Origin: Litorivita pollutaquae
Lineage (GTDB): Bacteria > Pseudomonadota > Alphaproteobacteria > Rhodobacterales > Rhodobacteraceae
Assembly: GCF_003205515.1 (NCBI RefSeq)
Contig: NZ_KZ826481.1
Coordinates: forward strand, 538,660-602,659
Direction of reading: 5' to 3'
Length of the DNA stretch: 64,000 nucleotides
The notes under the pieces are model-generated. The model was not told where the DNA came from. It ran no database searches and saw only the letters and a list, made by a program, of their open reading frames with translations. Each line of letters opens with the position of its first letter. Positions within the stretch are counted from its first letter, which is position 1. Shown in pieces: positions 60,690 through 63,340 of the stretch. The position numbers were made by a program, and so were the translations under genes.

Positions 60690-61619
60690 TCAAAGCCGTT
60701 GCCCCTTGGTCCAGGCCGTGCCGCGTAAAAACTCATCTGCATCCTGCGCGGCCTTGCCGGCCCGTTGCAAGCGCAAAACCTCGACCGCGCCACGGCCACA
60801 GGCCACAATCAGCCGCCCTTCGGTGGCGCCTTCCAACACGTCGCCCGGCGCGCTCTGCCCGGTATCAAGCCCCTCGGCAAGGCGGGACGCCAACAATTTA
60901 AACCGCGCGCCATTCACCTCACAGTAGGCACCGGGAAAAGGCGAAAGCCCGCGAATTTTTGCATCAATATCCAGCGCATCATCAGACCAATCCAGGCGTG
61001 CCTCGGATTTGTCGATCTTGGCGGCATAGGTAACACCCGCCGCCGCTTGCGGTGTGGGGGACAGACTGTCCAATGTTTTCAACGCCTCAACGATCGCCTG
61101 CGCCCCGAGTTCCGACAGCCGGTCATGCAATTGCGCGGTGGTTTCTTGGGCGCCGATCGGAGTTTCGCGGCGCAGCAGAACCGGACCCGTGTCCAATCCC
61201 GCCTCCATCTGCATGATGCACACACCGGTGGCCTCATCACGGGCCATGATCGCGCGGTGAATGGGGGCCGCGCCGCGCCACCGCGGCAAAAGCGAAGCAT
61301 GGATATTCAGACACCCGCGCGCTGGCGCGTCGAGCAAGGCTTGCGGTAAAATCAACCCGTAGGCGACGACCACCGCGATATCGGCGTTCAAATCGGCAAA
61401 GGCCTCGACCTCGGCCGGATCTTTGAAATTCAACGGATGGCGCACTTCGATCCCGATTTCGGCGGCGCGGGCATGCACCGGCGTCGGGCGGTCTTTCTTG
61501 CCGCGCCCAGCGGGGCGGGGTGGCTGGCAATAAACTGCGGCGATCTGATGCTCCTCGGCGACAAGCGCGTCCAGAACCGGCACCGAAAACTCCGGTGTGC
61601 CCATGAAGATGATCCGCAT
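60690..61619 (-). CDS. fmt: Methionyl-tRNA formyltransferase
   Basis: Fmt formylates initiator Met-tRNA. The 309-residue protein has [20 protein letters not shown], the [20 protein letters not shown] catalytic signature and [20 protein letters not shown], then the C-terminal beta-barrel domain. It follows the third deformylase gene by about 10 bp, so formylation and deformylation genes share a transcript. Confidence 0.97.
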
Positions 61620-61628
61620 ATCCGCCCC

Positions 61629-62126
61629 CTACCCGCGCAATTTCCTGGCCCGGCGCAAAAGCATGTCACGGCGGGTTTTGGTCAACCGATCAAAATACAT
61701 CTTGCCTGCCAGATGATCGATTTGATGTTGCACCGAGGTGGCCCAAAGCCCGACAAAATCGCGCTCTTCCATCTCGCCCTCGGCGTTGAGGTATTCCACC
61801 GTCACCGCGCGGGGCCGTGCGACCAAGGCAGAAACACCTTTGAGGTTCGGGCTGGCCTCTTCATGGGGACGCAATTGCACCGAAGCATGCAACACTTTGG
61901 GGTTGGCCATGCGGATCGCCTCGCCGCGCGCGTCGGATGCGTCCACAACCGCGAGCGCCAATAAATACCCGATTTGCGGCGCCGCCAAACCGACCCCCGG
62001 CATCGCCTCCATCGTGTCGATCATGTCGGTCCATATGGCGCGGATCTCGTCGGTCACACGATCAACGGGCACAGCCGGTGTACGCAGAATTTTGTTCGGA
62101 TAGGGCAAGCAGGTCCGCGGCGCCAT
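61629..62126 (-). CDS. Peptide-deformylase-like protein lacking catalytic motif residues
   Basis: This 165-residue protein has the deformylase fold and the first motif intact (GVGLAAPQIGYLLAL). At motif II, where the family has EGCLS with the metal-binding Cys, it reads EEASPNLKGVSAL, so the Cys is lost. Motif III, normally HExDH, reads QHQIDHLAGKMYFDRL, so the catalytic Glu is replaced by Gln. It is therefore probably not a working deformylase. It may be a regulatory or ribosome-binding paralogue. It follows two motif-complete deformylases and precedes fmt. Confidence 0.9.
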   Translation of the reverse strand: MAPRTCLPYPNKILRTPAVPVDRVTDEIRAIWTDMIDTMEAMPGVGLAAPQIGYLLALAVVDASDARGEAIRMANPKVLHASVQLRPHEEASPNLKGVSALVARPRAVTVEYLNAEGEMEERDFVGLWATSVQHQIDHLAGKMYFDRLTKTRRDMLLRRARKLRG

Positions 62127-62131
62127 GTGGA

Positions 62132-62809
62132 TTACTCCTCGGCTTTGGGCAGGAATGTAGGGGTCGGTGCAGCCAAAAGAGGCGCATTCGAAACCGTGTA
62201 AACCGCTTCGATCTTCTCGCGGCGGGCCGCGTCCAGCCGATCAAATGTGACCAACCCATCAAGGTGGTCCAATTCATGTTGGGCGCAGCGGGCTTCAAAG
62301 CCGGTCAACCGGCGCACCACATGCACACCATCCAGATCGGTATAGGCAAGCGTGATCTCGTCAGGACGGCTAACAGGGGCCGAAACGCCGGGGATCGACA
62401 GGCATCCTTCCTCCATCACCGACACCGCGCGGGAGGCGTCGAGCACTTCGGGATTGAGGCAAACGACGGGAGAATAAGCCCCCTCTTTCCATGTGCAATC
62501 CATCACAAAGATCCGTGTCAGCACACCGACCTGCGGCGCAGCCAATCCGCGCCCTTCGGCGGCATACATGGTATGCAGCATGCCAAGCGCCAAGGCGACA
62601 ACACCGTCGGGCGCGCGTTCGCCGGCTGTCAATTCCGCCGCCTCGCAACGCTTTGACAACCTTGCATCGGGCCATTTCAACACCGGCAGCGGCGCGGTGC
62701 CGCCCTGTTTGCGCAGCCCGTCCAGCATCCGCATCACATCGGCCAGAACATGCGGGCGGGCGGCCTCGGCTTTGGCGCTTTCGGCCTCGGTGTTGTTGTC
62801 CTCGCGCAT
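62132..62809 (-). CDS. def: Peptide deformylase, N-terminally extended
   Basis: This 225-residue deformylase removes the formyl group from nascent proteins. It has a 40-residue N-terminal extension, then LPVLKWPDARLSKRCEAAE, motif I GRGLAAPQVGVLTRI, motif II EEGCLSIPGVSAP and motif III QHELDHLDG, all intact, so it is probably active. It lies between the two other paralogues, 3 bp after the first and about 5 bp before the third. Confidence 0.95.
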   Translation of the reverse strand: MREDNNTEAESAKAEAARPHVLADVMRMLDGLRKQGGTAPLPVLKWPDARLSKRCEAAELTAGERAPDGVVALALGMLHTMYAAEGRGLAAPQVGVLTRIFVMDCTWKEGAYSPVVCLNPEVLDASRAVSVMEEGCLSIPGVSAPVSRPDEITLAYTDLDGVHVVRRLTGFEARCAQHELDHLDGLVTFDRLDAARREKIEAVYTVSNAPLLAAPTPTFLPKAEE

Positions 62810-62812
62810 TGC

Positions 62813-63340
62813 TCAGGCCCGCGTGCGTTCGCGTTTGAGCTTGACCATTTTTCGGGTGATCATCTGACGCTTGAGCGGTTTGAGGTAGTCGATGAACAAT
62901 TTCCCGTCGAGGTGGTCGATCTCGTGCTGGACACAGGTCGCCCATAAGCCGTCAAAATCGCGCTCTTGCGGGTTGCCATCCATGTCGATCCACCTCACGC
63001 GCACCTCTTTGGGACGGGTGACTTCGGCATATTGTTCGGGAATCGACAGGCAGCCTTCCTCGTAGACATTCGTCTCCTCCGATGCGCTGAGCACTTCGGG
63101 ATTGAACATCACCATAGGTTCGGGCGCTTCGCCTTGCGCTTTGACGCAATCGAGCGTGATGAGCCGCTCCATCACGCCGACCTGCGGTGCAGCAAGGCCA
63201 ATGCCCGGCGCGTCATACATGGTTTCGAGCATATCTTTGGCCAGCTTGCGCCGTGCATCGGACAAATCGTCGACGGGGGCGCAATGCTTTTTCAAGCGCG
63301 GATCGGGGTGTATCAAAATTGGCCGTATCATGCGCTTCAT
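62813..63340 (-). CDS. def: Peptide deformylase, standard form
   Basis: This is a 175-residue deformylase with motif I GIGLAAPQVGVMERL, motif II EEGCLSIPEQYAEV and motif III QHEIDHLDGKLFIDYL, all intact. The N-terminus RPILIHPDPRLKKHCAPVDD is the usual one. ATG 63340 or ATG 63331 could both start it. It is first in the series of three deformylases and fmt. Confidence 0.96.
   Translation of the reverse strand: MKRMIRPILIHPDPRLKKHCAPVDDLSDARRKLAKDMLETMYDAPGIGLAAPQVGVMERLITLDCVKAQGEAPEPMVMFNPEVLSASEETNVYEEGCLSIPEQYAEVTRPKEVRVRWIDMDGNPQERDFDGLWATCVQHEIDHLDGKLFIDYLKPLKRQMITRKMVKLKRERTRA

Follow-up and report, generated by a model that had tools for sequence, protein, structure and literature searches.

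A conserved deformylase paralogue with substituted catalytic residues in the fmt cluster of Rhodobacteraceae

The last of three tandem deformylase genes in front of fmt in Litorivita pollutaquae encodes a protein, here called Def3, which we regard as a conserved pseudoenzyme that is maintained by selection and would lack normal deformylase activity (probability about 0.93). Three catalytic residues are replaced in Def3, and the same three replacements are fixed in 152/152 orthologues. The window, i.e. the whole stretch of DNA that was analysed, comprises 64,000 nucleotides of contig NZ_KZ826481.1; all coordinates refer to it.

Locus and substituted residues

The cluster is located at the end of the window and is transcribed in the order def1-def2-def3-fmt (Table 1). 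The first-pass annotation had described three deformylase-type genes in tandem ahead of fmt, and this arrangement was confirmed by the open reading frames, by full-length matches of all three proteins to Pfam Pep_deformylase and by a genome-wide count: the 3.42 Mb genome contains exactly three genes of this family, all of them within the cluster. The tight packing of def3 in the operon, also described there, is real. The ribosome binding site-like box lies 8 bases ahead of the def3 start and overlaps the def2 stop codon, and fmt starts 9 bases past the stop codon of def3. Across orthologous loci def3 overlaps its upstream gene by a median of 4 bases (−4), and fmt is on the same strand as def3 in 145/145 loci with both genes.

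Table 1 Features of the deformylase cluster (positions in the window)
Feature	Positions	Strand	Evidence
fmt, methionyl-tRNA formyltransferase	60690..61619	minus	ORF list, profile match
def3, pseudo-deformylase, 165 aa	61629..62126	minus	ORF list, translation, Pfam, alignment, AlphaFold2
Shine-Dalgarno-like GAGGAG	62127..62142	minus	direct sequence reading
def2, accessory deformylase, EGCLS and QHELDH intact, tail acidic/neutral	62132..62809	minus	translation, Pfam, alignment
def1, canonical deformylase, motifs intact, C-terminal helix basic	62813..63340	minus	translation, Pfam, alignment

Def3 is a member of the deformylase family according to its full-length match to PF01327 (E 3e-37; 127.9 bits, cut-off 22.8), its TIGR00079 score (121.9, cut-off 103.95) and its identity of 43% to Def1. 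Translation and alignment reproduced the motifs reported for the third copy, which retains GVGLAAPQIG and reads EEASPNLKG and QHQIDH where the first two copies have the complete EGCLS and HExDH motifs (QHEIDH in Def1, QHELDH in Def2). In E. coli numbering Cys90 is changed to Ser, Leu91 to Pro and Glu133 to Gln. In the numbering of Def3 itself Ser92/Pro93/Asn94 replace Cys-Leu-Ser and Gln135 replaces Glu, while Gln51, His134, Asp137 and His138 are conserved. The loss of the catalytic Cys and Glu had been noted before; the change of Leu91 is a third loss, absent from the first-pass annotation. In deformylases Cys90 binds the metal, Glu133 is the general base and the backbone NH of Leu91 helps to stabilise the transition state. 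Since all three are gone together, hydrolysis by Def3 should be abolished. Deformylases with substituted motif residues are mostly weak or inactive (PMC5591237).

For counting residues 152 Def3, 167 Def1 and 79 Def2-type proteins were aligned. The Cys90 position is occupied by Ser in 152/152 Def3 proteins, compared to Cys in 167/167 Def1 and 77/79 Def2 proteins; at the Leu91 position every Def3 (152/152) has Pro and every Def1 and Def2 has Leu; at the Glu133 position Gln is found in 152/152 Def3 proteins, compared to Glu in 167/167 Def1 proteins. Both Cys and Glu are kept in 77 of the 79 Def2-type proteins. Accordingly, motif II of active deformylases (EGCLS with Cys90 and Leu91) and the general base of motif III (HExxH) are absent from all 152 Def3 proteins, all of which possess motif I with both Gly residues and Gln50 and retain His132, Asp135 and His136. 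The position of Ser92 (E. coli numbering) is Asn in 143, Cys in 8 and His in 1 of the 152 sequences, and the Def3 of the window has Lys where SPNLPG usually has Pro. As the Ser, Pro and Gln are fixed in every orthologue, chance and sequencing error are excluded. The codons at the fixed sites show synonymous variety, with Ser encoded by both AGY and TCN; thus the constancy lies at the level of the amino acids, not of the DNA.

Distribution, origin and selection

A whole-protein search yielded a def3-level match (50–77% identity, E 2e-45 or better) in 103/121 Rhodobacteraceae genomes, a set with about one genome per genus; the other 18 gave only a weaker def1-level match or, in one genome, none. 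Among 398 Rhodobacteraceae genomes with a completeness of at least 95%, about 351 (88%) carry def3, 42 have a single def1-like deformylase, three have two deformylases without def3, and none was detected in two. The single-deformylase genomes examined all have intact EGCL and HExDH motifs. Among the carriers are Roseovarius, Ruegeria, Marivita, Pseudooceanicola, Salipiger, Rhodobacter, Tabrizicola and Octadecabacter. A set of 80 loci was partly gathered by a pattern containing HQ[IV]DH and is hence biased toward this state, but locus sets gathered by whole-protein similarity showed the same state.

When a def3 profile was applied to 387 alphaproteobacterial genomes, scores of at least 265 bits were found only in Rhodobacteraceae and scores elsewhere did not exceed 198 bits; the best out-of-family matches examined are intact EGCLS/HExDH enzymes. 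One row (L047) of an alignment that served solely as a search profile has erroneous first residues; the structure was predicted from a different alignment. In a phylum sample the pattern QHQxDHLxG occurred in 12/14 Rhodobacteraceae genomes and in 0/185 genomes outside the family, the two misses having QHQIDHI instead. Occurrence of def3 outside the family was also considered on the basis of the pattern QHQxDHL, with about 20 matches in the 387 alphaproteobacterial genomes, and was rejected, the out-of-family matches all lying in unrelated reading frames. One assembly labelled Nocardioides marinus (JAHVJD010000009.1) contains a Rhodobacteraceae def1-def3-fmt cluster, which suggests that it is contaminated or mislabelled.

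In a tree of 100 deformylases, type 3 sequences not among them, def3 forms a single clade (support 100, starred) whose stem measures about one change per site and which groups with type 1B sequences of alphaproteobacteria. Likewise def2 forms a single clade (support 99, starred). The branch of the window's own def3 (0.31) is somewhat longer than those of several relatives. In a tree of fmt and def1 the basal lineages are def3 carriers, and def3-less genomes are interspersed with carriers; parsimony requires ten changes, of which starred branches force at least five. Most simply, def3 was gained once in the ancestor of the Rhodobacteraceae and then lost repeatedly. Def3 would then originate from one ancient duplication of an alphaproteobacterial type 1B deformylase in this ancestor; the metal Cys, oxyanion Leu and base Glu would have been lost, and fold, substrate pocket and ribosome-docking helix retained. 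Since about 12% of the genomes, from many separate lineages, lack def3, it is not essential to the lifestyle of this family. A signature of def3 absence was sought in def1, revealing only scattered weak differences that are confounded by ancestry. The def3 of one genome (G572) looks decayed (QHQANH, profile score only 86 bits), possibly a recent pseudogenisation.

Under a codon model, with a common tree for 30 genomes, omega was 0.073 for def3, 0.079 for def1, 0.130 for def2 and 0.085 for fmt. NG86 medians for close pairs were 0.132 (def3, 25 pairs), 0.128 (def1, 25), 0.277 (def2, 11) and 0.151 (fmt, 25). The constraint on def3 equals that on the canonical def1 and exceeds that on the active accessory def2. 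A strain-specific pseudogene, for which the substitutions would be confined to this strain and dN/dS would be near 1, is ruled out by the family-wide fixation of Ser, Pro and Gln together with this low omega, and the earlier suggestion of selection for another role gains support from the same data. Because selection preserves def3 as strongly as a working copy, it very probably has a function of its own.

Conservation is strongest in the pocket. For positions assigned to the pocket by analogy with the E. coli enzyme and not derived from coordinates, the mean entropy in Def3 is 0.35 bits versus 0.94 bits elsewhere, so that the former active site is nearly as conserved as that of the active Def1 (0.25 versus 1.07 bits). 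If Def3 served as a scaffold for another surface alone, the pocket should have drifted, yet it stayed conserved. Moreover, it contains fixed changes that are specific for Def3 (Met42, His88, Ser131). The dead state itself looks selected, since the motif of SPN(L)P and HQxDH is invariant or nearly so.

Possible functions of Def3

The C-terminal tail carries a net charge of +6 in Def3, +8 in Def1 and −1 in Def2. E. coli K150, K157 and K160 make contact with uL22 and 23S rRNA (PMC12690207); at each of the corresponding positions K or R is present in 152/152 Def3 proteins. The position of E. coli R153, which contacts Glu52 of uL22, is Met in 141/152 Def3 and 128/167 Def1 proteins; V. cholerae Def2 has Met there too, and a weaker uL22 contact is suspected (same source). 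An AlphaFold2 model of Def3 shows the full deformylase fold (pLDDT 96.1) with the basic C-terminal helix 150–164 formed, and Foldseek aligned it to E. coli deformylase 1lru with a TM score of 0.93 and an rmsd of 1.2. Def2 has lost the basic ribosome-docking helix of the E. coli type, while Def3 and Def1 kept it. The first-pass annotation had mentioned binding at the ribosome exit as one example of another role; the conserved basic helix favours this idea, and ribosome binding itself is what we infer from it.

Retention of the pocket for formyl-Met together with the docking helix suggests binding of an N-terminus at the tunnel exit without cleavage. This is our leading reading, and we see about an even chance that Def3 docks at the ribosome and binds formyl-Met, or another N-terminus, in this manner. 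Def3 would dock near the tunnel exit as E. coli deformylase does, would bind the formyl-Met N-terminus of the nascent chain or a related ligand without hydrolysis, and in this way would postpone or modulate the action of Def1 or hand chains to another factor. More tentatively, this could amount to a two-layer control of formyl-Met, in which dead, ribosome-bound Def3 holds the N-terminus and times removal of the formyl group by the active copies. If true, it would be the first pseudo-deformylase acting as a translation-exit factor. No usable transposon or proteomic data on def3 were found in the open-access literature.

It is unlikely, though worth weighing, that Def3 is a regulatory partner which forms a heterodimer with Def1 or Def2 and alters their activity, stability or access to the ribosome. 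Complementary losses would fit a docking subunit Def3 and a catalytic subunit Def2, as Cys and Glu are present and the basic tail is missing in Def2 and the reverse holds for Def3; the overlap of the genes suggests coupled translation, and def2 is absent in 17/17 def3-less genera compared to its presence in 36/70 genera with def3. Nevertheless, about half of the def3 carriers lack def2, the joint loss of both genes may be a single deletion, deformylases are generally monomers, and conservation centres on the pocket with no obvious new interface. Genome G635 has def1 and def2 without def3, and so has G506, although its def2 frame is short. A strict dependence of def2 on def3, hinted at by the 17 genera, is weakened by these two genomes; as a few genomes possess def1 and def2 but no def3, the active copies have no strict need of def3.

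It is quite unlikely that Def3 is an altered hydrolase, with two His and a new third metal ligand (Ser92, or Asn, Cys or His at position 94), directed at a special substrate or active under oxidative stress. All 152 proteins retain the Asp and both metal His, so that some metal chemistry may remain, position 94 always holds a possible ligand, and loss of the Cys could shield against oxidation. A similar altered role was suggested for type 3 deformylases by Lamberioux et al., and activity has been reported for some type 3 enzymes of trypanosomes (PMC12690207). Against this stand the simultaneous lack of base, metal Cys and oxyanion NH, and the mostly weak or inactive enzymes resulting from known motif substitutions (PMC5591237).

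The conserved pocket with its fixed Met42, His88 and Ser131 would also suit a ribosome-independent sensor, carrier or decoy for another small ligand or N-terminus such as free formyl-Met, formate or an antibiotic-like inhibitor. We consider this very unlikely: it leaves the conserved K/R residues of the C-terminal helix unexplained, and an inhibitor decoy is improbable because hydroxamate inhibitors depend on the metal centre. A decaying duplicate that persists through chance or operon structure is scarcely credible, for despite the losses in several lineages and the decayed copy in G572, omega is 0.07, the catalytic-site columns are invariant family-wide and a long stem is followed by slow evolution.

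Relation to known deformylases

With the type 1B deformylases of E. coli and alphaproteobacteria Def3 shares the fold, motif I with Gln50, the metal His and Asp residues and the basic C-terminal helix, but it differs from them at Cys90, Leu91 and Glu133. Type 3 deformylases resemble Def3 in their substituted catalytic motifs and expected weak or missing activity (PMC5591237, PMC12690207), and such substituted motifs, by which PMC5591237 defines the type, are present in Def3. They occur in archaea, trypanosomatids and some bacteria, with inactive accessory copies in S. aureus and S. pneumoniae, and are a diverse collection without a known conserved C-terminus or solved structure. Def3, in contrast, forms a tight clade of its own that descends from type 1B; its substituted motif is invariant, its helix conserved and its place before fmt fixed. 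Inactive deformylases are thus already known as type 3.

According to Lamberioux et al. (2025), deformylase genes are clustered in 98.1% of Rhodobacterales species and number three in 62.5%, a pattern whose rationale they called "elusive" (PMC12690207). This is the same gene cluster as def1-def2-def3, and the accessible part of that paper neither mentions a fixed dead member nor separates the three kinds. A statement that the third Rhodobacterales copy is dead was not found in the open-access literature. Our findings offer a concrete hypothesis for this published puzzle, and a family-wide pseudoenzyme in N-terminal processing would provide a ready genetic handle on the purpose of formyl-Met beyond initiation. 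Because the NCBIfam equivalog TIGR00079 matches above its cut-off, def3 is likely named an active deformylase in hundreds of genomes. Surveys of accessory deformylases, and those of resistance to deformylase inhibitors, likely count it as active, too.

Other substituted copies were observed in this family. The def2 of two loci (L013 and L146) has ENALSVP for EGCLS and QQVMDH for HExDH and represents a separate, independent dead copy. Two deformylase-like proteins encoded off the cluster contain EGSLSLP/QQLIDQ (L248 of G667, on a separate contig) and EGSLSMP/HEIDQ (L241 of G698), and according to these motifs at least one further class of substituted deformylase exists in Rhodobacteraceae.

The Def1 of the window has Tyr (EQYAEV) where the E. 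coli enzyme has Arg97, as often do def1-like proteins of other alphaproteobacteria. In V. cholerae Def2 the same change weakens the binding of actinonin (PMC12690207). Since Tyr is common at this position, a reduced actinonin sensitivity may be native to alphaproteobacterial def1-like proteins.
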